This document shows positions 3,743 to 24,997 of a stretch of 52,218 bases of DNA, piece by piece. How positions within the stretch are numbered: the first letter of the stretch is position 1; the number at the start of each line of letters is the position of its first letter. The stretch covers positions 1 through 52,218 of IMG/VR virus record IMGVR_UViG_3300025846_000001. One strand, given 5' to 3'. The notes below the pieces were generated by a model. It saw nothing but the letters and a program-made list of their open reading frames with translations, did not search any database and was not told where the DNA came from. The DNA is from a virus. The position numbers were made by a program, and so were the translations under genes.

Positions 3743-3760
3743 TTTATTTTAATAAATAAT

Positions 3761-5580: not shown

Positions 5581-7119
5581 CTATTTTGTTGTTACTGTCC
5601 ATAATGCATTTGCACCGTCATTATTAGGAGACCTGTAAGCCGCTAATGCTGCTTTATCTATTATACCCTGTCCTGTTGGTGCCTGTGATTGCCACCATGC
5701 GCCTACATTGATAACTCTTTCGCTTCTTGGTTTTGGATAATCCTTATTTGCCACAAAGTCTGCAAGTATTTGATTTACATTAGCTGATAAGAATTTAGTA
5801 TTGCCACCTAAATAACATAAATCATGTAAATTGGTTACATTTGGGACTGTTATTGTACAGGTACTTGAAACACTAAAATACCGCAATAAGGTTAACCCAG
5901 CGATTGATCCTGAAATTGTAGCAGTGCCTGTAAGACTAACTACTAACAGAGAAGTCAATCCGGCAATAGAACCATATAGTGTATTATTTCCAGTAGGCCT
6001 AAAAACAGTCAATAAAGTAAATTTACTAATATCACCACTGATATTAGGTGCATTAGTAGAACTAATCCACTCATTCCATTCGGATATTGACGACCCTACA
6101 ATACTTAACGTAGAAGAAGATGTACACTTAATATATCTTGTTTTTGAAAGACCCCTTGTCAATACCCATGTTTGAGATTGCCCTAAAGTTCCTGCTGCAT
6201 CAGTATAAAATGATGCCCCTGCACTCAATGTTAAAGTCGTAGTAGTATTACTACGCATATTAATTTTGGCTATACCAGTACCGTCACCAGTTGGCGTAAG
6301 CACAAAATCCGATCTCTCGCCCTCAATAGGCAAATGATCAATTAAGTTTTTAATGCTATAAACTCTTACGTAATCTATATAAAACTTTTGCGGTAAAATA
6401 GCATCATCAATAGTTCCACTCCAAGCATCCTTACCAAGTGATGTCATGAGTAATAAATAAAGCGGATCAACAAATGTTCCTGCATAGGCAACAGCAGGCG
6501 CAGCTAAACTCATATAATAAACATCATCAACAAAAAGACTTATAACATTTCCTTTTCTTTCCAATCCATAAACATGATAATTTGTTGATAAGTCAATAAA
6601 AGGAGGTATTACCAAAGCCTTGTCAGTTATATTTTCCAGTGTGTCTTTCCATATTAAGGTCTGCTGAATTGTATTTGGGGCACTACTCACCCATTCCATT
6701 ATATCAATTTCGCCACACTCAGGCCACCCAACCGTGGGAAAGTCTTCTCCCATCATCCAGATTGATGGCCAGATACCTTGACCTTGAGGAAGTTTTGCTC
6801 TTACCTCAACCCTTATATCACCTGCAAAGGACGCTTTTCCTAATGTAATAATACTTGCAGAAGTATAATGTGAACCTAAATATTCTTCTTTTAGTGTTGT
6901 GATAACAAGGTTTCCATTATCCACTACTACATTTTCAGGGCGATTAGTGGAGTATTGCGTTTGGCCGGGTCTGGTAATTCCAATTTCGTAATCCCATTTA
7001 GTAGGATCAGGAGTTCCGTCTACATCAAACTCATCAGCAAAAATTAATCGTTGCGTCCAGTAACTACTCCCACCTAAATGAAACGGTATTGCTATTCTAC
7101 TTGATGATATACCAGGCAT
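5581..7119 (-). CDS. GH16 family glycan hydrolase on the virion (depolymerase)
   Basis: 512 residues. Residues about 25-258 are a GH16 domain with the catalytic motif EIDIME (Glu137 nucleophile, Asp139, Glu142 acid/base) of the beta-bulge type found in laminarinases, agarases and carrageenases. Further GH16 features are FADEFDVDG near the start, QGIWPSIWMMG before the active site and FYIDYVRVY at the end. The rest (about 270-512) is repetitive beta-rich sequence. The first 22 residues match the N-terminus of the 18863 gene, suggesting a shared virion attachment tag. It likely cuts host surface polysaccharide during adsorption. Substrate cannot be read from sequence. Confidence 0.85.
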   Translation of the reverse strand: MPGISSSRIAIPFHLGGSSYWTQRLIFADEFDVDGTPDPTKWDYEIGITRPGQTQYSTNRPENVVVDNGNLVITTLKEEYLGSHYTSASIITLGKASFAGDIRVEVRAKLPQGQGIWPSIWMMGEDFPTVGWPECGEIDIMEWVSSAPNTIQQTLIWKDTLENITDKALVIPPFIDLSTNYHVYGLERKGNVISLFVDDVYYMSLAAPAVAYAGTFVDPLYLLLMTSLGKDAWSGTIDDAILPQKFYIDYVRVYSIKNLIDHLPIEGERSDFVLTPTGDGTGIAKINMRSNTTTTLTLSAGASFYTDAAGTLGQSQTWVLTRGLSKTRYIKCTSSSTLSIVGSSISEWNEWISSTNAPNISGDISKFTLLTVFRPTGNNTLYGSIAGLTSLLVVSLTGTATISGSIAGLTLLRYFSVSSTCTITVPNVTNLHDLCYLGGNTKFLSANVNQILADFVANKDYPKPRSERVINVGAWWQSQAPTGQGIIDKAALAAYRSPNNDGANALWTVTTK

Positions 7120-7136
7120 AATTATTTTTATTAAGT

Positions 7137-7172: not shown

Positions 7173-7769
7173 TTAATTTTTATTAATAAGATTAGTGTTT
7201 TTCATCCTTCTCAATTCCCATGCCTTTTTCATATTGTTTATATGATCCTCTGATTTGCATACTCCCTGCATAGTTTTGGATGTTTTATTTTTATGCTCTT
7301 CCGTAAGCGGCCTTAATTTTTTACCAGTTTTGCCAAGACTAATATTTTTAGCGTGTTCTTTAGTTTTACTCTTACCATTAAGAGCTTTACTAATCTTTAA
7401 ATTAGATTCTTTTGAATTAGGATTTTGAAGTTTTATCTCTCTTAATTTTTGTCTGGTTTCCTTAGAAACGCTTCTTCCTAATGAACTGCCGGCTACTTTA
7501 CAAATATTAAAATAGGGATTATAGGAATCAATAAAAAACTGTTCGTTTGCTATCAAATTCTCTTTATCACAACATATTAAAATAGAAAATAGAAGATCAT
7601 TCTTTCCGTATTTATTATAATGATTTTGAAGCCTATTGTTAGCGTGTTTGTTTTTAATCAAATCCTCTAAATGATAATTCCATCTTTTTGATATATTAAC
7701 AGCACTACCAACATAACATCTATTAGGATGTATTTTGCTTTCTATTTTATAGATACCAGTTCTTTTCAC
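7173..7769 (-). CDS. GIY-YIG homing endonuclease with NUMOD3 motifs
   Basis: 198 residues, GTG start at 7769. The domain starts at residue 5 with GIYKI, then CYVGSAVNISKRW (the YIG-equivalent Y-V-G and the catalytic Arg), and the Glu/Asn region NLIANEQFFIDSYNP, which is the canonical order. The C-terminal half has NUMOD3-type repeats (SKETRQKLREIKLQN; SKTKEHAKNISLGKTGKK; TEEHKNKTSKTMQG) that bind DNA. It is a free-standing selfish nuclease lying between virion genes, and no ATG exists near the domain start, so GTG is secure. Confidence 0.9.
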   Translation of the reverse strand: MKRTGIYKIESKIHPNRCYVGSAVNISKRWNYHLEDLIKNKHANNRLQNHYNKYGKNDLLFSILICCDKENLIANEQFFIDSYNPYFNICKVAGSSLGRSVSKETRQKLREIKLQNPNSKESNLKISKALNGKSKTKEHAKNISLGKTGKKLRPLTEEHKNKTSKTMQGVCKSEDHINNMKKAWELRRMKNTNLINKN

Positions 7770-9005: not shown

Positions 9006-9031
9006 TTTCTTTTCATTTTTAATTTATACTA

Positions 9032-9080
9032 CAAATTTATAAATACTCAATTCCCTATTAAGAAACATTAAGTTATATTA
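9032..9080 (-). promoter_or_regulatory. candidate late promoter, copy 1
   Basis: Minus strand TAAATTTG (9039-9032) is a -7 box. In place of the usual TTTG at -33 there is a 25-bp sequence (9080-9056, containing TTAATGTTTCTTAATA) that begins 16 bp upstream. The same 25 bases lie at exactly the same distance from a TAATTTTG box at 20336-20343. This element also covers the stop codon of the gene ending at 9073. Confidence 0.55.
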
Positions 9081-10605
9081 TATTCGAACAGCATCCAGCC
9101 AAAACAACTATCTCATCATAATCAAAAGTCAGATCCAGTTTAGCATAATATTTATCATCAAAAAGCCAATCATGTTCTACCTCAAGATTATAAACAGTAT
9201 TTGTATCGCCAACTAAATCAGTTAAAGCGATAGTATCATGTAGTCTTAATCTGTGGAATACATCAACCATATAATCGGGCATATTCTTTGTCCGGACAAG
9301 GTATTTCTTTGTCTGACGGGCAAAAGTCCTTACAAACCGTCCTTCCCCATTTTTCTGTCCTTCTTCTTCCAAAGGAAACGATGGCTCCATAGTTTCGGAT
9401 TCAAACCAAAGAGTTTGAGTGAATCCATCATGGTAAAGAATATCGCCTAAATCACAATTATTATGGAAATTAAGGATAAGATACTTGTCTGAATAAGATC
9501 TGAATACAAAAATCTCTGACACTGAAAAATTTAATGCGGCGGTATTAGTGAACCTAAATACAGCCATTTCGGTTGATGTTACGGTAAACGTAATTACATT
9601 TAACCCGGCAGTTGTTACAACCTGATTAGAAATTACTGCACCCCCTGATTTAGCTATATCAACTATTGGGAGTTCCCCTGAAATTTTAGTAAGATAGAAC
9701 AGAACTTCAATTATATCTCCTTTTGCGACCTGAAATTCATTACTATAATTAACTGCATTGCCGGCGTTATTAATTGCGGAGGTTATTGCCAGTCCTGATA
9801 CGTTTAAAGTATCATAATCATCACCGACATTAGGATTAGTTATCAGATTCTCGTAAATACAATCCACTTTAAACCATTCGGAATAATAAATAAATCCATT
9901 GTCCATTGTTATTTTCAAATAATACTCTCCGACTGGAAGCGAGTAATTAAGCGTATCACCTTTGTATTGAAAATAAACATCACTGGTTATAGCATGAGAA
10001 GCTGGAAGCGCAGAGAAATAACTATTAATATTTGCATAACCAATCTCTACGTTTGTAAATGAAAAATTACAATTTCCTCCTGCTGCTCTAATACTAAAAA
10101 ATATTGTAAGAGCCCCAGTAGAAGTATATGTTATAGTATTTAATCCGGCTGTTAAAGCTACTGTATTAACTACTGCATTATTATAATAAACATCGATAGA
10201 GGGCGCAGCGCCGGAATTTAATGTCAAAAATCCCTTAAAAGTGATTACCGTACCGATAGGACTATGAATATGCGCTTCTGCTCCATTACGCACTCCGGCA
10301 GAATCATTACCCCCATCTGAATTTACTGCACTTATAATATTAAGACCTGATGATGTAAAGGAATCAAATGAACCATTTACCCAGCTATCAAAAAGATTTC
10401 TGTAATAAGTATCCCCGTCTTTATTGATCATCTCTATATTAGATACCGTTGCGGCTCCGTCCGTTCCGTCCTTCCATTGAAAAGAAGGTAATCGGTGCCT
10501 CGGAGTTAAAGTAGGAATTATCCCATTTCCAGAATGTTTTGATCTCTCATAACATTGCTTTTCGATCTTATCGTAAATCGGGAGTGTAGTGATTATTGTT
10601 TTCAT
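9073..10605 (-). CDS. distal tail / adsorption protein
   Basis: 510 residues from ATG at 10605, which lies directly after the upstream TAA at 10607. It is beta-rich with two similar jelly-roll-like repeats (DVYYNNAVVNTVALTAGLNTITYTST... and ...VVTTAGLNVITFTVTSTEMAVF), resembling carbohydrate-binding modules. The C-terminal ~120 residues (FPLEEEGQKNGEGRFVRTF...HRLRLHDTIALTDL) look like a separate conserved tail domain. It follows the tape measure and a 590-residue tail gene, the usual place for tail-tip or receptor-contacting proteins. No named family is recognised. Confidence 0.65.
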   Translation of the reverse strand: MKTIITTLPIYDKIEKQCYERSKHSGNGIIPTLTPRHRLPSFQWKDGTDGAATVSNIEMINKDGDTYYRNLFDSWVNGSFDSFTSSGLNIISAVNSDGGNDSAGVRNGAEAHIHSPIGTVITFKGFLTLNSGAAPSIDVYYNNAVVNTVALTAGLNTITYTSTGALTIFFSIRAAGGNCNFSFTNVEIGYANINSYFSALPASHAITSDVYFQYKGDTLNYSLPVGEYYLKITMDNGFIYYSEWFKVDCIYENLITNPNVGDDYDTLNVSGLAITSAINNAGNAVNYSNEFQVAKGDIIEVLFYLTKISGELPIVDIAKSGGAVISNQVVTTAGLNVITFTVTSTEMAVFRFTNTAALNFSVSEIFVFRSYSDKYLILNFHNNCDLGDILYHDGFTQTLWFESETMEPSFPLEEEGQKNGEGRFVRTFARQTKKYLVRTKNMPDYMVDVFHRLRLHDTIALTDLVGDTNTVYNLEVEHDWLFDDKYYAKLDLTFDYDEIVVLAGCCSNII

Positions 10606-10606
10606 A

Positions 10607-12379
10607 TTATGGGCATAAACTATTAACAGCAACAGCAGGATCCATATCGTAAACAGGCAACGTCCATCCTGCGGGGAGTGCCGATGTATCAATGATTAAT
10701 CCCATGGACCACATTGCATCAAACGAATGACAAAGGTCTGCAAAAGTAAATGTACCGGTAATCTCTCCGGTGGGAATAGTCCAAGTCTCAGCAACGCCGG
10801 TACAATTCAAGGTGCAAGTTTCATCATATAAAAGTTCCTGCATACCTAATACTAAATCTGCATCGGCAGGTTCTGATAGAACTGCATGAAATGTATTTAC
10901 TCCATCCTGCCATACATAGATTATCTTTGGATCCGGAACAGGCGTAATTGCGGTATCTGGCGGACCATAAAGAAGTGCAAACTTCATCTCTCCTGAGGGG
11001 TTTAACTGAGAACTTTGCACTCTTGCCTGTGTTCCGTGAAAATAATTTATTCCTAATTCCGTTGTGATCTCATCCGAAGGATCATAATCATCCGCAGGAC
11101 AAACAATAGCGAAACAATCTTGCTTTATATTTTTTTGCACTGTATAAAATGTAACATCAGATCCATTTAATTTACCTTCTTTTAATACCCTGTTATGCCG
11201 GAAGTATTTATCATGAAGATTTGCAACTGATAGATGCATGTTTAATTTAGTATCCGCTGAAAGTATTCCAAGTGCAGATTCAACATGATATTCCCAACCC
11301 GCAAATCCCCAGACCTGATAATTACAAAGTATCACAAATCCATCATCACTTATTGCATCCGGATTGTTTACTATATATTCTAAGTCAGTCGTTACCTCAA
11401 TAGGTACATCATTTGTATTACTTTCCGAGTCCTGGTTTACGCATTTCGAATCATACCAAATAGGCACTCCGACAAAATTAACATTATCGGCTTCCATAAA
11501 AGTAATACTCTCATATTTAGGCATCTGCTCTTTTATGTAAGAGAATTTATTAGCCGCTTTAGATATTAATTGCGTTGTCAGATCAAGACCGTCATTATGA
11601 GTGAATGTGCTTATATGTTCTACATTTATCGTATTCGTTGCAGAATTATAGTTCCATTTTACCTGAAACATACCCCAAAGAATATCCATTAACTCATTCC
11701 AGCTCATCATGGCTGTTGTAGATGGAGTGTAAGAAAGTGGTCGTATTATATCAGATTTTTGTGCAATAGTAAGGTAAAGAAGATGGTTAACAACTCCGGT
11801 TGCAGGATTATTCGCAGCGGTGAAAAATGTAGTTGTTACATTCACCCCTGGTTTTATCTTGTCTGCAAGAAAATCAATAACACCAGTAAGCCATCGATTA
11901 CGCGTATATGTTTTACTTATCGATCCTCTCGTTGCAATGGCTTTTATTACCGGGGTAACAGCTAATATATTATATTGAGTCTCTGCATTGTCAAGAAGTG
12001 AATCATAGTCATCATCCATGGACGGAGTAACTTCAAAAGTGCATTTTGTCATATCAAATTCCCCGTCTGCTGTGGCAAAATACCCATTCCAATAAGCCAC
12101 TCCGTCTCGTTCTATCTCATAAATTATCTTAGTGCATAAATCAGTTCCTTCAATAAGAGACAATAGGTCGAAATCATCATCGCCATTAGTATTAACAAAG
12201 GTTAGTTTTCCGCTAAATTTTGTTCTGTAAAATACATTGTCTTTTTCCAGTTCATCACTAAGCGAAGATGATAAGAAGTTCAAAGGGAATACCTCGGTAC
12301 GTGTTGAACCAATAGTCAAATAATGCCTATAAGTAGCCAGATTACCTAATCCCGGATTTGCTATTGTAAATATGCTCAT
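10607..12379 (-). CDS. large tail protein downstream of the tape measure (distal tail/hub candidate)
   Basis: 590 residues, start overlapping the tape-measure stop (ATGA). The N-terminal ~130 residues (YRHYLTIGSTRTEVFPLNF...ELEKDNVFYRTKFSGKLTF...YWNGYFATADGEFD) have the strand pattern of distal-tail/hub N-terminal domains. The middle (LTGVIDFLADKI...MSWNELMDILWGMFQVKWNYN) resembles hub regions of Bacteroidetes phages. In siphophages the gene after the tape measure encodes the distal tail protein or hub, which is the basis for this call. Confidence 0.6.
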   Translation of the reverse strand: MSIFTIANPGLGNLATYRHYLTIGSTRTEVFPLNFLSSSLSDELEKDNVFYRTKFSGKLTFVNTNGDDDFDLLSLIEGTDLCTKIIYEIERDGVAYWNGYFATADGEFDMTKCTFEVTPSMDDDYDSLLDNAETQYNILAVTPVIKAIATRGSISKTYTRNRWLTGVIDFLADKIKPGVNVTTTFFTAANNPATGVVNHLLYLTIAQKSDIIRPLSYTPSTTAMMSWNELMDILWGMFQVKWNYNSATNTINVEHISTFTHNDGLDLTTQLISKAANKFSYIKEQMPKYESITFMEADNVNFVGVPIWYDSKCVNQDSESNTNDVPIEVTTDLEYIVNNPDAISDDGFVILCNYQVWGFAGWEYHVESALGILSADTKLNMHLSVANLHDKYFRHNRVLKEGKLNGSDVTFYTVQKNIKQDCFAIVCPADDYDPSDEITTELGINYFHGTQARVQSSQLNPSGEMKFALLYGPPDTAITPVPDPKIIYVWQDGVNTFHAVLSEPADADLVLGMQELLYDETCTLNCTGVAETWTIPTGEITGTFTFADLCHSFDAMWSMGLIIDTSALPAGWTLPVYDMDPAVAVNSLCP

Positions 12380-14520
12380 CTTCTTATTGTTCTTACTGAG
12401 TTACCTTTTTTGATTATAGTTAAGTTACCCATTATCATTATCTCTTCTTTATTATTCATTTTCTTTTGTTCTGCAATTACTTGATCCAATCTTTGATTTG
12501 GCCCGGTATTCTCAACCAATATGTTATTTGTTGATCCTGCCAGTTCAGGAGTTAATCTATTGAATGAATTTAATATCATTCGTTTGTCATCTCTGTTAAT
12601 AGCCTCTAAAACGCTTCTAAACTTATTTGCAGGCCCTTTACGAACAACAAACTCTCTTTCGTGAACTATTCCTGCCATGCGTTCACCAGAACTGTCACGC
12701 TGTTTGCCTTCGCCCGTCCAGCCACCCTTGGCGTATTGAGGAATAGGTTTTGCGGCTATTAATGCAGCCTGAATAAGTCCATTAGCAATGATCCAAGGTA
12801 TTAAAGGAATAGTAATTACTTTACTTGCAGCACTTGCCACTCCCTTTGCGGTATCAATACCTACACTAAATAGCCCCGCTATTTTTTCAGCTATCGATGC
12901 TTTGCGTGCGAGTGCGTTTTTCTTTGCAGCATATTTTTCATCAATTATTTCTTTTTGTCTGGCATTATCACCCGCCGCCTTAATTTCTTTGTTATATTGT
13001 TTGTCAAGATTTGAAAACTGCCTATTAAATAATTCAGCACCCAGCCCTGTGGCATTTGCCATTAAATCACGCTTAGCATTATATAAATCTTCTTCTCTCT
13101 TTTTTTCTTTATCAAAATATTCATTCGTATAACGCTCCGCCCGTTCTTTGTCACTCAAAACTTCCTGTTGTCTTTTTTGCTCTTTTGTAAAATATTCTTC
13201 AGTATATCTTTCCATTAAAGCTTTCATATCTAAATCTTCTTTTTGTCTTTTTTGCTCTTTTGTAAAATATTCTTCAGTATATCTTTCCATTAAAGCTTTC
13301 AATTTTAAATCTTCCTGTTGTTTTTTTTGTTCTTCTTTTGTTAGATTTGCCTGATCAGAACTTAATTTAGTTTGTATTCTTATTGTATTCTGCAACACCT
13401 CTCCTTTTGATTGTATAAGGTCAACTGATTTTCCTACCAATACATTATATTTTTCCTCTGTTGGGATTACCATATTATTAGCTATCTCTCCCCATTTCTT
13501 CTGTTCATCAGTTGTGCTTTTAACAGATTCATTTAATTTATCATATTCTGCAAATTGCTCCTTAGTGATAGCAATAATTCCCATTCCAGAAGATGTAATT
13601 GTTTTTTCTGCAGCATCACGTTTACTTATTAATTGATTATATTCTTTCCCTATTTCAATACCCTTTAAAAATTCTGCATCCCGTTCTACATAAAGTGTGA
13701 TTTGATTTCTCATTTCATCATTTATATCCTTTGTCTTAAATGCCGCTTTGGTAATATTATCAAGTTCATTATCATAAGCTAATTGTGCAATTCCTGTTCT
13801 TATTTTAGCTAAATCTTCTTCTATTTTAATGGCTTCTTTGCCTGCTGCAATTTGCTGAGCCTTTGTACTTAATGCACTTTGTTGTATTTTCCTTTGTTCT
13901 AAAAGTGCATTTGCCGCGTTAGCTTCAGCTATTTTTAAAGCTCTGGTCTTACTGTCAATAAGATCCAATGCTTCTGCATATCTTCTTCCTTCTTGTATTG
14001 CCTCGTTAACTTTTCTATTAAAATCCTTGAAATCCAATGTAGCCACTGCCACTTTTATGGCATCGAACCCAGCCTTAACTCCTGCAATAACAACATTAAG
14101 CTGATTTGCTGTTTTGCCTGTTGATTCAAATGCAGATTTTAAAAGTCCCAAAACAGCAGTAAATCCCGCAACAATACCACCCCATTTAAATATTGAACCG
14201 GAAAGCGAATCCCCAGATTTTTCAACATTTTCAATTACACCACCACCGCCACCAGAAGAAGGTGCTAAGTCGGATAATTTCTTTTTTAAATCATCCATTT
14301 TTTTATTATAGGTATCTATTTGCCCAGTTGAACTAAATCCCTTTTTCTGCTCATTAAATAAATCCCTCATTGACTTAGTAATGCTTTCAGTGGTCGCCTT
14401 TTGTTTCTCGTTACCTTGCACAACAGTATCATTCAACTTTTTTGCTGCACTTTCAACTTCCTTAATTCCCTTAACAGCATCCTTGTTATTTGCCACTAAT
14501 CGAAGTTCCACATCTTCCAT
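12376..14520 (-). CDS. tail tape measure protein
   Basis: 714 residues. It has a long coiled-coil rich in Lys/Glu/Ala, a hydrophobic stretch near 125-145 (FKWGGIVAGFTAVLGLLKSAF) and another around 560-590 (VITIPLIPWIIANGLIQAALIAA), as expected for a protein that fills the tail tube and reaches the host membrane. The C-terminal region (ARKASIAEKIAGLFSVG ... GGWTGEG ... AGIVHEREFVV) is typical of phage tape measures. Residues about 390-470 contain three copies of a 25-residue charged unit (LMERYTEEYFTKEQKRQ...). Length would set a tail of roughly 100 nm by the usual 1.5 angstrom per residue rule. Confidence 0.88.
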   Translation of the reverse strand: MEDVELRLVANNKDAVKGIKEVESAAKKLNDTVVQGNEKQKATTESITKSMRDLFNEQKKGFSSTGQIDTYNKKMDDLKKKLSDLAPSSGGGGGVIENVEKSGDSLSGSIFKWGGIVAGFTAVLGLLKSAFESTGKTANQLNVVIAGVKAGFDAIKVAVATLDFKDFNRKVNEAIQEGRRYAEALDLIDSKTRALKIAEANAANALLEQRKIQQSALSTKAQQIAAGKEAIKIEEDLAKIRTGIAQLAYDNELDNITKAAFKTKDINDEMRNQITLYVERDAEFLKGIEIGKEYNQLISKRDAAEKTITSSGMGIIAITKEQFAEYDKLNESVKSTTDEQKKWGEIANNMVIPTEEKYNVLVGKSVDLIQSKGEVLQNTIRIQTKLSSDQANLTKEEQKKQQEDLKLKALMERYTEEYFTKEQKRQKEDLDMKALMERYTEEYFTKEQKRQQEVLSDKERAERYTNEYFDKEKKREEDLYNAKRDLMANATGLGAELFNRQFSNLDKQYNKEIKAAGDNARQKEIIDEKYAAKKNALARKASIAEKIAGLFSVGIDTAKGVASAASKVITIPLIPWIIANGLIQAALIAAKPIPQYAKGGWTGEGKQRDSSGERMAGIVHEREFVVRKGPANKFRSVLEAINRDDKRMILNSFNRLTPELAGSTNNILVENTGPNQRLDQVIAEQKKMNNKEEIMIMGNLTIIKKGNSVRTIRR
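13169..13301. repeat. 75-bp-period direct repeat in the tape measure gene
   Basis: 58 bases at 13169-13226 recur identically at 13244-13301, 75 bp apart (25 codons in frame). A third, diverged unit lies just below 13169. In-frame duplication of a coiled-coil unit would lengthen the tail by a fixed step. Confidence 0.9.
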
Positions 14521-14521
14521 A

Positions 14522-14781
14522 CTATTTCCCTTTCATATAATTATCAACAAAACCAAAAAAATCGAATATGTCAAACTTAACTACCTCTCTCATTTGTCCC
14601 GGGTCTTTATTACAAATTGAATAAACCAAATCTTTCCAATATTTATCGAGTTCCTTAATATCATCTGATATTGATTTTAACTTTGGTTCTGATTTTCGTC
14701 CTTCTTTATTGAACCATTTGGGATAGTCAGTAAGTAGGCGGGCATCCAACTTGGTACAAGACTGGTTGCCAAATAAAAGAA
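14522..14781 (-). CDS. tail assembly chaperone, -1 frame extension (T part of G-T)
   Basis: This frame overlaps the upstream chaperone gene and has no ATG near its beginning (only TTG at 14809). It is one base back (-1) from the upstream frame, and a stop codon at about 14812 limits the overlap. Ribosomes that slip at 14779-14785 would join residues 1-128 of the upstream protein to 85 residues of this frame (LLFGNQSCTK ... FVDNYMKGK), ending at TAG 1 bp before the tape-measure ATG. This is the arrangement of lambda gpG and gpGT. Confidence 0.75.
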
Positions 14782-15162
14782 AGGGGATATTTCTAACTCC
14801 CTCCCCCAACTATCTATTTTTGATTTCATCATAGCCGCATTATAAACAGTAGGATCTTCATTCTCTTCATCAATAAATAAAGCGCAAAGTCTTAATGCAG
14901 GATCGTCCTTTTCTTCCAAGTTCTTTATTCCTTCCTGAATCTTATAAAGTACAATAGACATATTAAAATAATCATGCTTATTGTAAGAGTCAACCGCTGT
15001 TTTAAGGTTGTTAAATATGTCCTCAAAGGTTGCTGAAAATCCAAATTCAAGAGTTATCTTTTGCAGTTCCCGATAACGATTAAATGAAAGAGATTCTTTA
15101 ACAAAGAACTTCTTTCCGTCACATTCAAAATACTTCTCTTTTTCAAAATCAATCTTTTTCAT
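14677..15162 (-). CDS. tail assembly chaperone (G-like)
   Basis: 161 residues, ATG at 15162. It is a mostly helical, acidic protein (MKKIDFEKEKYFECDGKKFF...) directly upstream of the tape measure. Chaperones at this position coat the tape measure during tail assembly and are made as a short form and a frameshifted long form. The 133-bp overlap with a -1 frame and a fitting heptamer (see 14779-14785) support that role. No clear sequence family was recognised; the call rests on gene order and overlap. Confidence 0.75.
   Translation of the reverse strand: MKKIDFEKEKYFECDGKKFFVKESLSFNRYRELQKITLEFGFSATFEDIFNNLKTAVDSYNKHDYFNMSIVLYKIQEGIKNLEEKDDPALRLCALFIDEENEDPTVYNAAMMKSKIDSWGRELEISPFFYLATSLVPSWMPAYLLTIPNGSIKKDENQNQS
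14779..14785 (-). other. -1 ribosomal frameshift site (C CCT TTC)
   Basis: On the minus strand, in the frame of the 15162 gene, codons read TCC CCT TTC. The heptamer C CCT TTC fits X XXY YYZ with X = C and Y = T, allowing both tRNAs to re-pair on CCC TTT. It is the only X XXY YYZ match I find in the allowed window (14677-14812). Confidence 0.6.
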
Positions 15163-15427
15163 ATAAATATTGGTAAATGGTGGCTAATAAAATCCCGGCA
15201 GCCGGGTAAAATAATTGATCAATCAAGTGATAATTCTGTAAATGAGTAATCCAGTAGTAATGAAAAAGAACTTGCCCACTCATACACCGTAAACAGCCAC
15301 CGATAGGTTTATTCAACCATGTGGGCAAATTCTCTATCCACCTGAAATAAAAGTTAAATATCTGACCCGATTCTCCTAATGTCCAGAATATAAATACAAT
15401 GATTGATAATTTTAAAATCTCTAACAT
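15149..15427 (-). CDS. membrane protein with CxxC motif
   Basis: 92 residues, with an N-terminal transmembrane helix (LKLSIIVFIFWTLGESG), a CLRCMSGQ motif about residue 45, and a second hydrophobic segment near the C-terminus (FYPAAGILLATIYQYLY). A cysteine pair between membrane helices resembles DUF1360-type small membrane proteins. It overlaps the chaperone gene by 14 bp and the upstream gene by 7 bp. Role in a tail operon is unknown. Confidence 0.6.
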   Translation of the reverse strand: MLEILKLSIIVFIFWTLGESGQIFNFYFRWIENLPTWLNKPIGGCLRCMSGQVLFHYYWITHLQNYHLIDQLFYPAAGILLATIYQYLYEKD

Positions 15428-15993
15428 GGTATTACAAAATGAATTTCTAAATCCAAAGCAAAAAATGAATATGGATGAAGTAAATATTGAGTCGCATTTT
15501 CATTATAAGTATATTTTGAGAATATATCAACAGATCGCTCCGCTTCGGAAATACCCGAAACGAATATGCTTACAAAGTCCGCTGTCTGAATCGGGGTTGT
15601 CGGTAATACCTGAATGACATCTATCACATAATCACCCGCTGTTCCGCAACCTTCAGGATCGCAGTCATTATTTATCAGTTTGAGATTCAACCAGCCGACC
15701 AACCGAAGTGAGGATGTAAACTTTAACCTGGATCCTATACGTTCTACAAACGAAACCCCTTTGTCTTCGAAATAAAGTACGCTCTTCTTTTTTGAATCAG
15801 GTGTTAAGGCCTGATATTCGCCTTTGATACAATCTTCCGCAGTAACATCACAGGAGACCGGGTAACTTTTTTCAACTGCTGAATCATCTTTCTTAACTCT
15901 TATATTAGCAGTCTGAACAAGACCGGCAACTTTATCCGACCATGGAAGAGTTTCTAAGTATGTTTTAAAAAGTCCGGCAATTTTATTATTCAT
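15421..15993 (-). CDS. tail completion/terminator-like protein
   Basis: 190 residues (MNNKIAGLFKTYLETLPWSDKV...), beta-rich, with ATGA coupling to the upstream 154-residue gene. Its position, after a gp10-like connector protein and before the chaperones, is where tail terminator or tail completion proteins normally lie. No motif confirms it. A Cys-rich loop (NDCDPEGCGTAGDYVI) and a C-terminal Cys are notable. Confidence 0.5.
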   Translation of the reverse strand: MNNKIAGLFKTYLETLPWSDKVAGLVQTANIRVKKDDSAVEKSYPVSCDVTAEDCIKGEYQALTPDSKKKSVLYFEDKGVSFVERIGSRLKFTSSLRLVGWLNLKLINNDCDPEGCGTAGDYVIDVIQVLPTTPIQTADFVSIFVSGISEAERSVDIFSKYTYNENATQYLLHPYSFFALDLEIHFVIPC

Positions 15994-16454
15994 AATAATT
16001 GATTTTTGCGAAACATATTAAGTATGCCTTGTTCGTATGATTTCACTAAAGACTGTTTTTCCTTTTCATTTAATGCGAGTATATCGCCTTTCTTTTCCGT
16101 GTTCCAGTTTAATTTATTCTGTTCAAAGCTTGTAGTTGCTTTTATTACTGCAATACCTTTATCAAGTTCGTCTTTTGGTGAAATGAGTTTAATCCTCGAC
16201 CACATATCATTTGTAAAAGAAAAATCAACAAAGCCCCTGTACTTACCTTCTTTTTTCTTATATGTTAAATAACCTTTAGAATATTCCGGATACTTTGCTC
16301 CTTCAGGATTTAATCCTTTCTCTTGTACCCTCTGTTTGATTAACACAATAGCATTACTCGCAACCTGAACCATAACCTGCCCATGTGCGCCCTCCTGAAG
16401 GTCTCTAATCACTCCATTGAGTCTTTTGCTATAATCTAAAAGTGTTATACTCAT
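15990..16454 (-). CDS. connector/minor tail protein, HK97 gp10-like
   Basis: 154 residues. The N-terminal helix (YSKRLNGVIRDLQEG) is followed by VASNAIVLIKQRVQEKGLNPEGAKYPEYSKGY, matching the pattern in gp10-like and neck proteins (a helix with ...I..R..., then G.....G..Y..YS). A strand pair (FVDFSFTNDMWSRIKLI) follows, and the C-terminus is basic and helical (NEKEKQSLVKSYEQGILNMF). Such proteins sit at the head-tail junction. Gene order (capsid side upstream, chaperone downstream) agrees. Confidence 0.6.
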   Translation of the reverse strand: MSITLLDYSKRLNGVIRDLQEGAHGQVMVQVASNAIVLIKQRVQEKGLNPEGAKYPEYSKGYLTYKKKEGKYRGFVDFSFTNDMWSRIKLISPKDELDKGIAVIKATTSFEQNKLNWNTEKKGDILALNEKEKQSLVKSYEQGILNMFRKNQLL

Positions 16455-16501
16455 TTTATTATTTTACTCATGCTTTTTATTCTCGTTTCGTCTGATAGCA
16501 A

Positions 16502-17629
16502 CTAAATTAAGCAGTATTCTTTTATCTTCAATAAATCGTTACCTGTCTTTTTATTGGCATAATTCAGCACTTCTTTAAGTAAATTATTTTCAACTTTGGT
16601 AAATAATCTATCCTGATATGCTCCATTGAAATAAGCATTATAAACTACATAATCAAGCAATTCATCTATTCTCCACTCAAAAGGATTCGCAGCATTATAA
16701 TAAAGCATACTACCTGTTGCTATATGGATAGTTGAATTTGATTTGTCAAAAACGTCAAGTTTTGTTTCTCCTATTAACCCAGCCGGATTAAAATTAAAAA
16801 CTGCGGGTGCTAAATTCCAATAATCTGGACTTGCAGGACTATCATAATCCTTTGTATAAGTACTTAATTCTGCTGGGGATTGCGGTACTCCTGCCTCTGT
16901 GTATGGAACGTATTCATCTAATTCACCAACCTTAATAAACTTGGAATAACCTTTTAAGTTAGCAAGATGAAAAGATGCTGTCTTATCATAGGCTATCTTA
17001 CTTCCTGTTCCTGTATATAAAAGATGACTTGTCCCGATAACGTCATATATATATTTTCCTGTTCCTGTAAGAATCCATTTATTTGTACCATCAACTTCTA
17101 CCCATGCACCACTCCCCACTCCAAAAACATCAGCAAGCCTGTCGTACATTCCGATAGTAATATTGTCTCGTATAGGATTCGTGCACTTGGAAAACCAAGC
17201 ACCGTCATCACTCCCTGCGGACACAGAAATCGTTATTGAAGCGCCATCAATTTTAATATAATATGCTACACCTGTTGATCCAAATTCTATCTCATGCCAT
17301 CCATAAGACATAGCTGTAATATGTTGTATTCTATTCAGAACAGCACCATCCTTATAGACTAAGAACTTCAATACTCCATCAACTGTATTTAATATAAAAT
17401 ATTTTGAACTTGTACCCACATCAGCAGATCCAAATATGACATTTGTTCCCGCAATGACATTCCAGTATGCTTTTATATATCCAGAGGCATTGCCAGAATT
17501 GAAATTAGCTACTGCTTTATATAACTTATCATCTGTCCCATTAAAAGTGGAATATGCCGGTTTTGGCTGTGACCATAAACCAAATTGTCCGTATGGTGTT
17601 TGTTTTTTCTCTTTAAATATAGTTTCCAT
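16502..17629 (-). CDS. virion protein with lectin-like (LamG/concanavalin) domain
   Basis: 375 residues. Residues about 28-155 have the strand pattern and aromatic spacing of a concanavalin-like sandwich (YSTFNGTDDKLYKAVANFNSG, ...WNVIAGTNVIFGSAD, ...YGWHEIEFGSTGVAYYIKIDG). The C-terminal region includes another beta-rich domain and a helical tail (FTKVENNLLKEVLNYANKK). It follows directly after the tagged 410-residue gene, so the two may form one adsorption apparatus that binds surface glycans. Specificity is unknown. Confidence 0.6.
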   Translation of the reverse strand: METIFKEKKQTPYGQFGLWSQPKPAYSTFNGTDDKLYKAVANFNSGNASGYIKAYWNVIAGTNVIFGSADVGTSSKYFILNTVDGVLKFLVYKDGAVLNRIQHITAMSYGWHEIEFGSTGVAYYIKIDGASITISVSAGSDDGAWFSKCTNPIRDNITIGMYDRLADVFGVGSGAWVEVDGTNKWILTGTGKYIYDVIGTSHLLYTGTGSKIAYDKTASFHLANLKGYSKFIKVGELDEYVPYTEAGVPQSPAELSTYTKDYDSPASPDYWNLAPAVFNFNPAGLIGETKLDVFDKSNSTIHIATGSMLYYNAANPFEWRIDELLDYVVYNAYFNGAYQDRLFTKVENNLLKEVLNYANKKTGNDLLKIKEYCLI

Positions 17630-17630
17630 A

Positions 17631-18863
17631 TCATTTAAATTTTACCCACATTGTACCAGTCCCAAAAGGTAATGTACTTATTGAAGCATCCATCCGCCAC
17701 CATCCTTGTGCATTTTTAGTAGACACCCTTAAATAACTCAAATTACCTCCCGGCCCTGTCAGTGTTTTCTCTAAATTAGTAACTCCGCTATCTTTTGATA
17801 GGATTAATTTCCTATAACTATTTCCACCACAACCAGCTATAAACTCACCATTAGAGTTCATTTGGAAACTATTAATAATATCAGCCACATTTGAGTAAAC
17901 ACCTATGTATTCTACTGTATCAAGTAAGCCGGCAATTGGTACTTTGTAAATTGATCTCTTTAATACATCCCCGGTTGCATCGCTTCCCCAAAATATATAA
18001 GTACCGTCATAATACATACCCGTTGTCTTATTATAAGAGTTTTCATCGCTTGATGCTAACGTCAAGGGAGTCCATACGCCACCACTATAAGTTAATTTAA
18101 GCCAATTACACCTATCAACCGTGTCTCCTGTCTGAACTATCCAGTACCCATCAATAAAATTGGTAGCGTGAATATGCCTTGCTGCAAGATTAGGTGCAAT
18201 ACCATCGAACTTATATATAATTCTAATAGTAACTCCTGAATCTAAGGTTGCAAAAACATTAGTTTCATTATCAGAAACACCCACGCTATTACCATAATTA
18301 CCCCAAACATCATATTCAACTCCACCGATAATGACCTGCCTACCAACATTGAGTTCTTTATAACTTTGGCCGTCTGAATTAACAGATGGTGTCCATGCTG
18401 ACCCATCAATATCTTTTACAATTACTTCATTGTAAGTAGAAAGATCATCAGTGCTTAAATATACTTTTGTTTGTGTGCACCATAGAATATTACCGTTTGC
18501 ATATATCTTTGATCTTCTTATTTCATTACAATCAGCAAACGGAATATTTTTAACAAATGAAAATCCAGCATCATAGGATAAATACAGTACACCGTTTGAA
18601 TATGCAAATACCTTATTATCAATAGCGTATTCTCCTTTTATAGAAGTATCCCACCTGAAATAAATATTTGCATCAGAACCAACCACGCCCAAGACAGGAA
18701 TTAAAACATCCTCTTCGCTTACTCCTTGATACCATGTATCTAATCCACTTACAGATTGTGGCGTCCAGTAACTACTCCCAGTATTATGAAGCGGTATTGT
18801 TAATCTTGTTGCTGAAATTCCCGGCATAGCTAATGATGTTTTATTTTTAAACGGTACATTCAT
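17631..18863 (-). CDS. virion adsorption protein with N-terminal tag shared with the GH16 protein
   Basis: 410 residues. ATG at 18863 overlaps the upstream stop (ATGA); an inner ATG at 18827 would begin exactly at MPGISATRLTIPLH, the segment shared with the GH16 protein (both run MPGIS, Arg, I-P, G/N, GSSYWT). The remainder has repeated short units resembling sialidase/BNR-type Asp-box or beta-propeller blades (KVYLSTDDLSTYNE, ISFKNIPF-like, LSKDSGVTNLEK). A propeller-like receptor-binding protein held by the same anchor as the GH16 enzyme is the best reading. Confidence 0.6.
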   Translation of the reverse strand: MNVPFKNKTSLAMPGISATRLTIPLHNTGSSYWTPQSVSGLDTWYQGVSEEDVLIPVLGVVGSDANIYFRWDTSIKGEYAIDNKVFAYSNGVLYLSYDAGFSFVKNIPFADCNEIRRSKIYANGNILWCTQTKVYLSTDDLSTYNEVIVKDIDGSAWTPSVNSDGQSYKELNVGRQVIIGGVEYDVWGNYGNSVGVSDNETNVFATLDSGVTIRIIYKFDGIAPNLAARHIHATNFIDGYWIVQTGDTVDRCNWLKLTYSGGVWTPLTLASSDENSYNKTTGMYYDGTYIFWGSDATGDVLKRSIYKVPIAGLLDTVEYIGVYSNVADIINSFQMNSNGEFIAGCGGNSYRKLILSKDSGVTNLEKTLTGPGGNLSYLRVSTKNAQGWWRMDASISTLPFGTGTMWVKFK

Positions 18864-19234
18864 TCTTTTATAAGTTTAAATGCCTCTACAATAGAATGCG
18901 TAGTCTTAATTCCCGATGTAAAATTTGTATCTGTTACGGTTGTTATGATCCTTGCAAAATATTTTGTACAGATAGGCCAAAGAGCGTGAATAGAAGGATC
19001 GATATAACAAGCCAATGTCCCGGAAGCAGCAACTAAAGTGATAACTTCTCCGGTTAAAATTGTGCCAGTCCAGTAAACGGTATTATTAGGGATTGCCTTA
19101 TCGGACTTGATGATCTCTACTGAAACATCATCCAGAGTAGTTATATCAATCGGCAATAGAGTATCCGCATCGATCAATGTTAATTCTAATTGAATGCTAT
19201 CAACCCCTCGAATATATGAATCGATTGTTGCCAT
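18860..19234 (-). CDS. small baseplate/neck protein, BppU-like N-terminal pattern
   Basis: 124 residues. The core reads DSIQLELTLIDADTLLPIDITTLDDVSVEI, close to the pattern of BppU-type N-terminal domains (strand, D, P.DLT, V.v.i). That domain attaches receptor-binding proteins to tails. It lies directly before the tagged adsorption gene, which fits an adaptor role, but the evidence is weak. Confidence 0.45.
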   Translation of the reverse strand: MATIDSYIRGVDSIQLELTLIDADTLLPIDITTLDDVSVEIIKSDKAIPNNTVYWTGTILTGEVITLVAASGTLACYIDPSIHALWPICTKYFARIITTVTDTNFTSGIKTTHSIVEAFKLIKE

Positions 19235-19235
19235 A

Positions 19236-20303
19236 TTATAGTCTTTGTGATATTTTTCCTACACTAAGGGAAGATTTACATTTGAGACATTCACCCCGCG
19301 ATGGTTCAATATTCTCTGCAATGAAATTTATCAGGGCAGTGTATCTCTCCGAGTAATATGCCATATTTGCGCCTAATACGTCATCATTGCCAATCAACGT
19401 GTAACGGCTTACCTCCCCTGAGTTCTTAATCTCATAAGTCAGAAACTCCGCTGTCTTATAAAGAATAGCATAAGCAATAGCTCTATCGATTTCATTATTT
19501 TCAAAGTCTGAGTGCTCACTGCAAAGCATAGCCACGGCATCGCATTTAAACTCTCCATGAAGCCTTAATCCCTGAGCATAATCAGTAACGGCCCAATGAT
19601 CGCGCTCGTTAGGATCATCGCCATGTATCCCCCCAGCCATTGACCATAATGTCCAGTTCTCTTTTGAAGAGTTAAAGCAAGGCTTAGCGATATTAAAACA
19701 CCAACGATAACCACCGCATCCGCATGTCATCTTATTATTGTACGGAGTTCCGACAGGAGAATAGATAAAATAATAATTCCCATTCAATTCAAGGTCAATA
19801 GGTGTTATCGCTGTGTATTTCGGTTTGCCGGCATCGGACGAAATAGCAACTGTATGTAAAAGCTGAAAATCATCATAAATCAATAGATTGACATTTTCTG
19901 TTGTGTTAAGATTTAAGGTAACTCCCCGCAATATAAACACCCCTCCACGTATATCGGAATAAACACGCATACCGTGATAAATGTCCTTAGTGATTACCTG
20001 AGTAAATCTTCTGTGCCCTATGTCGCCGGAGAACTTTTCTCTTCGATATTCATTATATTTTAAAAGTTCTGTGAATATGTCGGTGCGAAAAGTATTAACC
20101 CCATTTATGCGCGCGCAGGTCATCATATCCCAGATGTTATCCTTACCGCCTACCGCATCAAGAATGCGTAAAGACATCCCTTGAAGTTCATCGACAAATA
20201 ATCCGGAATTGGATACTGAATAGGCGACATCGTAATCAGCGACACATAAGTCTTCGCTACGTGTTAATCCTATGATATTTTCAAAACAAACTGGCAAACT
20301 CAT
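19236..20303 (-). CDS. virion structural protein, 355 residues
   Basis: It starts MSLPVCFENIIGLTRSEDLC and has several Cys clusters (MTCGCGGYRWCFNIAKPC; ECLKCKSS). The C-terminal third is helical (IDRAIAYAILYKTAEFLTYEI). Proteins of this kind follow the capsid gene in Bacteroidetes phages, but I cannot name its function; neck or decoration are options. A late-type promoter and the capsid terminator lie just upstream, so it probably begins its own strong transcript. Confidence 0.6.
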   Translation of the reverse strand: MSLPVCFENIIGLTRSEDLCVADYDVAYSVSNSGLFVDELQGMSLRILDAVGGKDNIWDMMTCARINGVNTFRTDIFTELLKYNEYRREKFSGDIGHRRFTQVITKDIYHGMRVYSDIRGGVFILRGVTLNLNTTENVNLLIYDDFQLLHTVAISSDAGKPKYTAITPIDLELNGNYYFIYSPVGTPYNNKMTCGCGGYRWCFNIAKPCFNSSKENWTLWSMAGGIHGDDPNERDHWAVTDYAQGLRLHGEFKCDAVAMLCSEHSDFENNEIDRAIAYAILYKTAEFLTYEIKNSGEVSRYTLIGNDDVLGANMAYYSERYTALINFIAENIEPSRGECLKCKSSLSVGKISQRL

Positions 20304-20320
20304 ATTATATTATTTTAAGT

Positions 20321-20361
20321 AAAAAAGGCCTGATACAAAATTAAATGATCAGACCTTTTTA
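20321..20361 (-). terminator. intrinsic terminator after the capsid gene
   Basis: Minus strand AAAAA, GGTCTGAT, 13-nt loop, ATCAGGCC, TTTTTT. The 8-bp stem has one wobble pair and A/U tracts on both sides. The loop contains TAATTTTG, a -7 promoter box, so termination of the capsid transcript and initiation of the next share the same bases. Confidence 0.85.
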
Positions 20362-20384
20362 TTAAGAAACATTAAGTTATATTA
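20336..20384 (-). promoter_or_regulatory. candidate late promoter, copy 2
   Basis: Minus strand TAATTTTG (20343-20336) lies 16 bp downstream of a 25-bp element (20384-20360) identical to 9056-9080, where the spacing to the -7 box is also 16 bp. It would transcribe the 355-residue virion gene and those after it. Confidence 0.55.
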
Positions 20385-21392
20385 AGCACATGCAAATGCT
20401 AAAATACCAGAATTGGTTGCAGAGCAAGGAGCAGGATTCAGCGCAAACAGTCCATGAAGCTGAACTTTAAATGCGGTGAAGTAATCGTTATTCAAACAAG
20501 TCCTTTCAGTAAAGATGTCATAAGACACTCCCGGAAGGTTCCTTGAGTTTTCACTCCATGCCATCCTGTCAGCGGTGAGTTGTACGGCATTAGCACCACC
20601 AAGCGGATACCAAGCCTTGCCAACGAAAGCAACAGCGGTTTTATGCAGTAAGAACGTGTAAGCCGGGGCGATAACCTCAACATTTTCAGGGTCAAGATAC
20701 ATCTTCAGCGTATTCATCTTTGCATAATTACCTTTACCATCAGCATTACCAACTTCCAGAGACCGGTTAAAGATCAACTGATAAAGGTTTGTTCCGGTAA
20801 TACCATAAGGAGAAGTAAATTTATTCATCCTTGCAACCAGATCCATATAACCCCAGATATTATCATTCCAGTTACCTGGAGCAATAGTTGTCAGAGCGCC
20901 GGCAACGGTTCCAACACCTCCGGTATATACGTTCGTCCCAGCAGCAGCAAGAATCCCTGTTAAAACAAACTGAGCAATATACTCATCTAATAGTTTTTTA
21001 CGTCTCTCAATGAGGAATGCGATAGACTCTTCTGGGTTTGTAGTTCTCTCCCTATATACACGGTCGGCAACTTTAAAAGACGACTCCTGTAAACAGGTAA
21101 TCTCATATTCCTTACATTCCGGAGTTGCATCATCACCGTCAATAGAGCAATCATCGGTACATGCTTCGGTAGTGGCATCGCAATCAGTGAGCCATTCCAA
21201 AGAAATAACTTTCTTTTTATTCTTATCTTGAAGTTCACCAAACTTAACAGATTGGTTTTCAAGTACAGCCTTTGCAGCATTTACATCAGCTTTCAGATCA
21301 ATGTTTTTTATAGGATCAAGCCAGATCGCATCAGCTTTTGCCTGAATCGTAGCTAAATATCCACAGTCAATTAATGAGTTCGGTTGTGACAT
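20382..21392 (-). CDS. major capsid protein candidate
   Basis: 336 residues. It immediately follows a scaffold-like gene and precedes a strong terminator, the usual signature of a capsid gene. The chain starts acidic, has a Cys/Asp-rich insert (TDCDATTEACTDDCSIDGDD), a long helix (EESIAFLIERRKKLLDEYIAQF) like the HK97 spine helix, then a beta-rich domain and a C-terminal strand region. HK97-fold capsid proteins are commonly 300-400 residues. No sequence family was recognised, so the call is from order and architecture. Confidence 0.75.
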   Translation of the reverse strand: MSQPNSLIDCGYLATIQAKADAIWLDPIKNIDLKADVNAAKAVLENQSVKFGELQDKNKKKVISLEWLTDCDATTEACTDDCSIDGDDATPECKEYEITCLQESSFKVADRVYRERTTNPEESIAFLIERRKKLLDEYIAQFVLTGILAAAGTNVYTGGVGTVAGALTTIAPGNWNDNIWGYMDLVARMNKFTSPYGITGTNLYQLIFNRSLEVGNADGKGNYAKMNTLKMYLDPENVEVIAPAYTFLLHKTAVAFVGKAWYPLGGANAVQLTADRMAWSENSRNLPGVSYDIFTERTCLNNDYFTAFKVQLHGLFALNPAPCSATNSGILAFACA

Positions 21393-21394
21393 AA

Positions 21395-22267
21395 TTATTT
21401 ATTTTTCGTTTCCCAATTAGTTTGTATTTCAACTCTTTCTTTTGGGGTTAACGTCTGATCTCTCATTATATTGATATAGTCGTCTCTGTCTTTAGGCATC
21501 TTGACTTTACTTCCATTAGGTCCTGCCGCGGGTTTATTCCCGGACGAACTTCTATCTTCAGCTTTTTTAAAATCAAAATATCTTTCGGCGTGTCCTTTTA
21601 CGTGATCCTGAAAATTAACATTATTCGCGTGACCATCCTGAAGTGGGGTTCCATCTTCTTTTAGTACGATGAACCCTGACTCATCTTTCTGGTATTTGTT
21701 CTTTTTCAATTCACTTACAAGAACAGCTTTTAATGCCGCTGCCTTTTTAGCATCTTCCGGTAAAATAGGATTAAGGTTATCAAACTCTGCAAGAGCGGCT
21801 GTCTCGACTTCCTTAAATAGATTTACGCTATTTATCTCATCTTCTTTTGCCTTTAACTTATCTTCCAGTTCTTTATCCTTTGCCTTCAATACCTTTGAAT
21901 GTTGATTAACGAGCTTTATGACTTCTGGATTTTTCATTATATCCTCCGTCCCGGCTCCTTCGACTTCGCCCAACTTTGTCTCTACAATGTGATCAAACAA
22001 ATCAACTCCGATTAAATCAGATTCAACTTCATATTTCTCTTTGAGTTCTTTTTCCAGTTTCAGGGATGCTTCCTTCAATCCTCTGTTATACTGGTTTGTT
22101 TTGTCCGCTGTAAGTTTTGAGATCCTTTCAGTGTCTTTGCGCTCAATTAAAGAAAAGTCTGTTAATTCTCCGGCTTCATTATAAAGGCTGGCCAAGTCCT
22201 CAGCAGTGAGTTTAAAGGCTTTCACTGCAAATGCCTCAAATGCTTCCGCATTAATATTTTTATCCAT
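21395..22267 (-). CDS. capsid scaffolding protein
   Basis: 290 residues, almost entirely helical and highly charged. A helical N-terminus (AEAFEAFAVKAFKL), long coiled coils (ISKLTADKTNQYNRGLKEASLKLEKELKEKYE; SKVLKAKDKELEDKLKAKEDEI) and a flexible, Ser/Gly/Pro-rich then basic C-terminus are the standard form of phage scaffolds, whose C-terminus touches the capsid inner face. It lies 2 bp upstream of the capsid gene. Confidence 0.85.
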   Translation of the reverse strand: MDKNINAEAFEAFAVKAFKLTAEDLASLYNEAGELTDFSLIERKDTERISKLTADKTNQYNRGLKEASLKLEKELKEKYEVESDLIGVDLFDHIVETKLGEVEGAGTEDIMKNPEVIKLVNQHSKVLKAKDKELEDKLKAKEDEINSVNLFKEVETAALAEFDNLNPILPEDAKKAAALKAVLVSELKKNKYQKDESGFIVLKEDGTPLQDGHANNVNFQDHVKGHAERYFDFKKAEDRSSSGNKPAAGPNGSKVKMPKDRDDYINIMRDQTLTPKERVEIQTNWETKNK

Positions 22268-22454
22268 TTTTAGATATTTTCTTTTTAGTTATTTCTATTG
22301 GTTTGTTAATTACTGGTACTTCTCTGAGTTTACGTTCCACGATAGGAGTCATGTCATAAGATTTATCCCATCCACGTCCGACAAGATTATCCCAGACCTC
22401 ATCCGATATGATTTCTACCTTTTTTGTTTTCTTGCCTATAATCTCTTTTGCCAT
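22260..22454 (-). CDS. hypothetical 64-residue basic protein
   Basis: MAKEIIGKKTKKVEIISDEVWDNL..., with a basic start and end. It overlaps the scaffold gene by 8 bp and its ATG overlaps the upstream TAA (TAATG). Head-operon position suggests a small virion or assembly factor, unassigned. Confidence 0.6.
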   Translation of the reverse strand: MAKEIIGKKTKKVEIISDEVWDNLVGRGWDKSYDMTPIVERKLREVPVINKPIEITKKKISKNG

Positions 22455-23753: not shown

Positions 23754-23784
23754 CAAATATAAACCTTTATTTTTTATAAACAAA
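23754..23784 (-). promoter_or_regulatory. Bacteroidetes-type promoter
   Basis: Minus strand TTTG (23784-23781), a 19-bp spacer, TATATTTG (23761-23754). Full consensus. It starts a transcript through leader RNA 2 into the 162- and 47-residue genes. Confidence 0.7.
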
Positions 23785-23790
23785 TTTATT

Positions 23791-24780
23791 TTAGCTTTTC
23801 TTCAAATCTTGACGTAAATCAAAAGCCAGATCATCAGAAATGAAACCTATTGAATGTCTGCAATTATAACCTCCAGCATCGGTTAAAGGTTGATAACCAG
23901 GATAACCAAGATAACTTGGTACTTCATAAGGATTCTTTGACTTAATAACATACCCTGCAGGATATTCACCTATGGAAGGAGTCCATTCACCCCATAGAGC
24001 AGCTTCGTCCCTTGTCCATACTTTATTATTGTGAGCAGCGCAAAAGTCCCGGGAATCATCTATTAATCCACCCTGATAGACAAAATATTTCATATCAAAT
24101 TCATCAGCCAAAGAAGTATTATAAGCTCGATCATACTGTTGGTATATATCATAAGCATACCTTTCGTATTGTTTTTCCAAGGCTCCTGTTTGAAGAATAG
24201 TCTTAACTCCGTCTTTAATTACCTCACGTGGCACACCCTCGACAATATCAGTCAGTCCTTTGATAAATACCTTTGTATCTACTTGTCCTGTTATAGACTT
24301 TGAAACGAAACTCTTTACCTGTGTTGCTAATGTCTTGTCGGTAAAAAAGGATTCAAGAAAGCCACCTCTAACCATTTTACCACCTTCTAATCCGATCCGC
24401 ATATTGATCTTCTTTTCAGTAGCACTAACAATCTTACCGAATCGGGAACCAAGATCACCAATGAGCGCAACGCCTATATAACTATTCTCCAAGGCAACCA
24501 GTCCATAAGTAGTATTTACTATCTGCGGTAATATTGTTAGCTCCTGAATCTTTGCGAACTTCTTATATATATCTTCAACCTGGCTTAACTTTCGGTAATT
24601 AGTCAAAACATCCAAAAGGGATCCTTCTTTAAAGGTCATGTCTGGAAGTAAATCTGCCAGTAACTCATTAAGAAACTGCGATTGTAATTTAACAACAGAC
24701 TTCTCAAGTTCGGTTCTATGAAGATCAATATAATCCTGCTTTTTATTTAACAGATCTATAATCCGTTTTGGAATTTTCAT
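23791..24780 (-). CDS. MuF/SPP1 gp7-type head morphogenesis protein
   Basis: 329 residues. The C-terminal domain carries the MuF signature: QGGLIDDSRDFCAAHNNKVW, then ...GGYNCRHSIGFISDD, with conserved Cys/His pairs. The N-terminal ~200 residues are helical. MuF proteins are minor head components close to the portal, sometimes ejected with DNA. Portal and terminase lie upstream, as usual, but three glycosyltransferase-like genes have come between. Confidence 0.85.
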   Translation of the reverse strand: MKIPKRIIDLLNKKQDYIDLHRTELEKSVVKLQSQFLNELLADLLPDMTFKEGSLLDVLTNYRKLSQVEDIYKKFAKIQELTILPQIVNTTYGLVALENSYIGVALIGDLGSRFGKIVSATEKKINMRIGLEGGKMVRGGFLESFFTDKTLATQVKSFVSKSITGQVDTKVFIKGLTDIVEGVPREVIKDGVKTILQTGALEKQYERYAYDIYQQYDRAYNTSLADEFDMKYFVYQGGLIDDSRDFCAAHNNKVWTRDEAALWGEWTPSIGEYPAGYVIKSKNPYEVPSYLGYPGYQPLTDAGGYNCRHSIGFISDDLAFDLRQDLKKS

Positions 24781-24997
24781 ATAATTCTTTTTTTAATCTT
24801 TGGAATGTCGTTAATGCTGATTCAATATTATAATTTTCTTCGTCAACATACTTAAAATAATTATAAAGTGCCTTCTCTACACTTATTGCCGGCATGATCG
24901 ACCGTTGACCCTCAATAAAGAAAAACATCGATAGATCAGAATAGTTCCTTTTGTAAATCTTTGGGATCAGGGACATATATAACTTTTCCTTCGGCAT
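24743..24997 (-). CDS. hypothetical 84-residue protein
   Basis: MPKEKLYMSLIPKIYKRNYSD..., basic N-terminus and helical C-terminus (ESALTTFQRLKKELYENSK). It overlaps the MuF gene by 38 bp and abuts the glycosyltransferase upstream. No known family is recognised; conserved placement between portal and MuF would suggest a head function. Confidence 0.6.
   Translation of the reverse strand: MPKEKLYMSLIPKIYKRNYSDLSMFFFIEGQRSIMPAISVEKALYNYFKYVDEENYNIESALTTFQRLKKELYENSKTDYRSVK

Follow-up and report, generated by a model that had tools for sequence, protein, structure and literature searches.

A palindromic element at fixed distance from a -7 box marks two predicted late promoters, one merged with a terminator, in a group of related phages

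The virus record analyzed here (phage W; the window is its full length of 52,218 bp) contains two sites at which a 17-bp dyad precedes a Bacteroidetes-type -7 box at a fixed distance. The arrangement is real and conserved. It is best read as two late promoters that depend on an activator, one of which shares its sequence with a terminator. Judging from the sequence pattern and its conservation, both sites are likely to be late promoters that would need a dimeric activator and be transcribed by host RNA polymerase with its primary sigma factor. The record looks complete because it carries a 127-bp end repeat, and all W genes named below lie on the minus strand.

A 25-mer (minus strand letters TAATATAACTTAATGTTTCTTAATA) occurs twice in W (Table 1). 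As originally predicted from the sequence, a repeat search found the two copies identical, each followed 16 bp downstream by a TAnnTTTG box (TAAATTTG at site 1 and TAATTTTG at site 2) and each overlapping the stop codon of the gene before it (9073-9075 and 20382-20384). The element had been described as confined to two late-gene positions, and W indeed contained no third copy at up to 3 mismatches (shuffled sequences gave none). An exact search found the 25-mer nowhere else in IMG/VR. Thus, the 25-mer is a real element of W but is specific to this phage, and the conserved unit is the 17-bp dyad. The protein encoded upstream of site 2 matched neither the library nor PHROGs and is called capsid-like from its position and context.

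Table 1. Features of the two sites and their surroundings in phage W.
Feature	Position	Strand	Remarks
Site 1 25-mer copy	9056..9080	-	exact repeat; 17-bp dyad at 9061-9077
Site 1 -7 box, TAAATTTG	9032..9039	-	TAnnTTTG, same offset in 6/6 site 1 phages
Gene with stop codon inside the site 1 element	9073..10692	-	
First gene after site 1, 186 aa	8445..9005	-	52-80% identical in five relatives
Site 2 25-mer copy	20360..20384	-	exact repeat; 17-bp dyad at 20365-20381
Site 2 -7 box, TAATTTTG	20336..20343	-	mostly within the terminator loop
Predicted intrinsic terminator hairpin with T run, after the capsid gene	20322..20360	-	individual folds
Capsid-like gene upstream of site 2	20382..21392	-	58-74% identical in relatives
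First gene after site 2 (355 aa), opening the connector/tail block	19236..20303	-	conserved in relatives
84-aa protein, speculative activator candidate	24743..24997	-	small, basic, in all six larger genomes

A search with the capsid-like protein yielded the relatives L003 (G1, 48.4 kb), L004 (G2), L005 and L006. Profile searches added L019, L020 (G5), L021 (G6), L026 and L053 (G10; 51.9 kb with a 126-bp end repeat), so that ten phages including W were compared, with whole records of the relatives read where possible. L022 and L023 had the same match scores as L021, and L022 gave an identical reading at both sites. Both positions are covered in W, G1, G2, G5, G6 and G10, while for L005, L006, L019 and L026 the available sequence contains the capsid-side position only, giving 16 sites in total. 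The segment 10607-12379 used as query returned no relatives, and the capsid and 186-aa proteins had no match among 50,697 phage records. L026 lies on a contig of a Bacteroidales assembly, which hints at a Bacteroidales host; note that binning can be wrong.

In an ungapped alignment of the ten phages, all 16 sites contain a 17-bp dyad (core AACnT-W-AnGTT) whose right half-site ends exactly 21 bp before TAnnTT. Positions A-6, T-2, A0, T+4 and T+5 of the dyad and TA..TT of the box are invariant. Dyad and box follow the capsid gene in 10/10 phages and precede the homologue of the 8445-9005 gene in all six that cover this position, with the dyad and spacing of site 1 kept in G1, G2, G5, G6 and G10. 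The site 1 boxes all read TAnnTTTG. At site 2, TAnnTT is present at the same offset in every phage, and the full TAnnTTTG in half of them (W, G6, G10, L006 and L019). The other five (G1, G2, G5, L005 and L026) have TAnnTTGC, the changed bases joining the stem of the hairpin described below; that these boxes end in GC rather than TG counts against the best explanation. The dyads vary between phages, whereas within one phage those of site 1 and site 2 are alike. G6 and G10 have identical 22-bp dyad regions and boxes, and their site 1 spacers show 4 differences in 21 bases. Thus, the search of relatives proposed with the original prediction recovered the element-box pair in the same two places and with identical spacing, the element itself having diverged. 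Scanning IMG/VR for the palindrome-plus-box pattern returned 13 loci, one of which was G5. The others were rejected, as the arrangement was not seen on reading and several look like coding sequence.

To score the element, we used profiles from which the phage being tested was excluded (G10 was found later and is not included). The true sites ranked first and second in all five two-site phages, and the true site ranked first in all four single-site phages. In W, the two sites scored 23.0 and 23.0 bits, compared to 10.3 bits for the next match. TAnnTT occurred at offset 29 in 14/14 of the sites then known and at no other downstream offset in more than 3/14. When 21-bp stretches were compared, the two sites of each phage agreed at 89 of 105 bases in total, the best of 120 pairings, compared to a mean of 12.2 of 21 bases for site pairs from other pairings; no within-phage likeness was found in the spacers and upstream flanks. 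Symmetry within the dyad amounted to 74 of 112 pairs, compared to 41.8 ± 4.7 in shuffled sequences, and peaked only at the assigned centre. Note that the sites were first anchored by eye and that the phages are related, so that these counts do not represent independent events.

Promoters of Bacteroidetes combine a -7 box, TAnnTTTG, with a TTTG near -33, the distance between the two being variable (PMC7366714). Other boxes in W, such as those near 33286, 37862, 23761 and 3718, have TTTG ~19-21 bp upstream. In contrast, no TTG is present 16-24 bp upstream of the box at either site, and the right half of the dyad sits where the -33 box would be, in agreement with the earlier proposal that the element replaces the TTTG of host promoters. 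With the box centred at -7, the dyad would be centred about -40 (its midpoint lies ~30 bp before the box begins, at roughly -40 to -42), and transcription is predicted to start at about 9025-9029 at site 1 and 20329-20333 at site 2. We propose that a dimeric activator, probably phage-encoded, binds the 17-bp dyad and stands in for the contact normally made at -33, allowing host RNA polymerase with the primary sigma factor to read both promoters late in infection. A trans-acting factor over the -33 region that aids the host sigma factor had been suggested before, and would fit because pair, places and spacing are the same in the relatives although the element has diverged. The genes turned on from site 2 would be the connector/tail block; those turned on from site 1 would be the block for distal tail, fibre and lysis.

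W contains a second set of promoter-like repeats that are alike (3713-3751, 23755-23793 and 52014-52060); in the first two, TTTG lies about 19-20 bp before TAnnTTTG. In the tail region, two different proteins (5581-7119 and 17631-18863) have a similar start (7047-7120 and 18755-18828), and a GIY-YIG homing endonuclease gene (7173-7769) adjoins the former. Within the minus-strand gene at 1174-1884, 15-bp units repeated in tandem (1453-1842) encode a pentapeptide-repeat protein.

At site 2, individual folds place box 2 in the loop of a predicted hairpin just after the capsid gene. Its energy ranges from -15.8 to -21.0 kcal/mol across the ten phages, and in each of them the hairpin is stable and followed by a T run, as in intrinsic terminators. 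The stem letters change among the ten phages and the pairing is kept. No such hairpin is present at site 1 in any of six phages (folds of -1.0 to -4.9 kcal/mol). RNAalifold on a gapped MAFFT alignment of the terminator returned no consensus structure; the hairpin rests on the individual folds. An automatic scan missed it in its terminator listing, and the sigma-70 consensus used there is unsuited to the host type. Folding of the element itself was weak or absent (0 to -3.6 kcal/mol), and a role of the element in RNA only was rejected. The earlier reading was right about the element-box pair but missed the dyad symmetry and the conserved terminator around box 2.

We see an even chance that site 2 is a conserved terminate-and-restart module, the capsid terminator holding in its loop the -7 box of a late promoter that depends on an activator, and that this activator is a member of a so far unrecognized family. 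Transcripts arriving from the capsid gene would stop at the terminator, and activated polymerase would start inside the 3' arm of the hairpin. With a start ~7 nt past the centre of the box, the new RNA would contain only this arm; the 5' arm being absent, the terminator could not re-form and the transcript would run on. If so, a single stretch of ~60 bp would terminate capsid transcription and, after the activator has been produced, initiate that of the tail block. Terminator and activated promoter in one sequence suggest a compact setting of the capsid-to-tail transcript ratio. We found no report in the open-access literature of a promoter in a terminator loop.

Several other explanations of the two sites were considered. 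The identity of the two W copies over 25 bp might be taken to indicate a recent duplication, or a recombination site, without promoter function, the outcome that would have undone the original prediction. This is contradicted by the diverged counterparts that all relatives hold at both homologous positions at a fixed spacing to the box, as well as by flanks and spacers that are unalike, and we give it practically no credence. More weight attaches to the view that site 2 consists of the capsid terminator and an accessory upstream signal, site 1 being the only promoter and the TAnnTT in the loop incidental. The strong hairpin with T run in 10/10 phages and the imperfect boxes in half of them would agree with this. 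However, TAnnTT stands in the loop of all ten phages at precisely the offset that it has at site 1, and the two sites have the same dyad; we regard this view as unlikely.

The dyad could also be the operator of a repressor that holds the late promoters off, as a protein bound at about -40 would likewise block polymerase. A tyrosine recombinase was recognized in G1 by reading, and some members may therefore be temperate. However, no recombinase was seen among the W proteins read, promoters without a -33 box are expected to be weak unaided, and a repressor site would more likely lie over a full promoter, making this explanation unlikely. That the element is AT-rich and located just upstream of -33 is reminiscent of an UP-like element contacted by the polymerase alpha subunit, or of a factor-independent extended promoter. 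Dyad symmetry and a phage-specific sequence common to both sites would not be expected of an UP element, and we consider this very improbable. Activation from the dyad is the reading we prefer.

What would the activator be? The six larger genomes (W, G1, G2, G5, G6 and G10) have in common the terminase, glycosyltransferases, virion-like proteins and two small basic proteins (24743-24997, 84 aa; 22260-22454, 64 aa); no recognized DNA-binding protein common to all six was found. The 84-aa protein is a speculative candidate. Profile searches of Pfam, PHROGs and PDB returned nothing credible for it. Covariation with the operator was rejected as support, being no better for this protein (rho 0.33 with operator distance) than for the capsid (0.43) or other head-block proteins. 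A DnaA-C-type HTH protein (43326-43925) has relatives in G6 and G10, but no relative was observed in G1. The presumed small terminase gene (32560-33000, minus strand) differs in type between W, G1, G2 and G5/G6, whereas the large terminase is conserved. No sigma factor was recognized among the W proteins scanned with Pfam, which comprised part of the ORFs. The activator may come from the host or be a phage protein that evolves fast.

Other observations concern the genes encountered in this comparison. The terminase-like large protein (30107-32560, minus strand) has an intein-like insert (VAETLISTDRG...VHNC); its counterparts in G1, G2 and L026 align only in pieces and that of G6 nearly throughout. 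Glycosyltransferase-like genes lie within the head-gene block (24997-27290, minus strand), two of them conserved in all six larger genomes. G6 (record L032-L034) encodes an ECF-like sigma factor by reading (11333-11863 in gene orientation).

The switch from early to late transcription in lytic Bacteroidales phages is largely unmapped. For crAss001, middle and late genes have been suggested to depend on host polymerase (PMC8375218). We found no description of late promoters of the present kind in Bacteroidales phages in the open-access literature. The finding supplies an exact promoter signature and predicted start sites, together with a few candidates for the activator, the products of 24743-24997, 22260-22454, 32560-33000 and 43326-43925. 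An activator whose 17-bp operator is known would be valuable for controlling expression in Bacteroides.

Among known systems, Parabacteroides and Bacteroides phages match the portal protein at 22% identity. The Parabacteroides phage PDS1, a distant cultured relative by this measure (portal 22% identical), has a hairpin after the capsid gene, as does W. In contrast to W, no TAnnTTTG box or dyad was seen there, and PDS1 encodes a sigma factor; it was therefore rejected as a cultured example of the site 2 architecture. Bacteroidetes sigma-ABfr promoters (PMC7366714) share the TAnnTTTG -7 box with the two sites but carry at -33 the TTTG that is missing here, where the dyad is found instead. At the Pm promoter of phage Mu, inverted repeats with their centre at -43.5 are occupied by a dimer of the activator Mor, which takes the place of the -35 element (PMC4390567). 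The two sites resemble Pm in having a dyad near -40 of the predicted start in place of the -35/-33 element, and the use of host polymerase with the primary sigma factor would be a further parallel. They differ in the type of -7 box and in the merging of one copy with a terminator. Membership in the Mor type fails because no relative of the Mor/C family (PF08765) was found in six genomes at E <= 1; as a comparison of how the promoters would work, Mu Pm is a good one. Phage T4 middle promoters provide another, although no relative of MotA or AsiA was recognized among the phage proteins read. In T4, the box of the activator MotA near -30 replaces the -35 contact, much as a phage activator bound to the dyad would replace the contact at -33.
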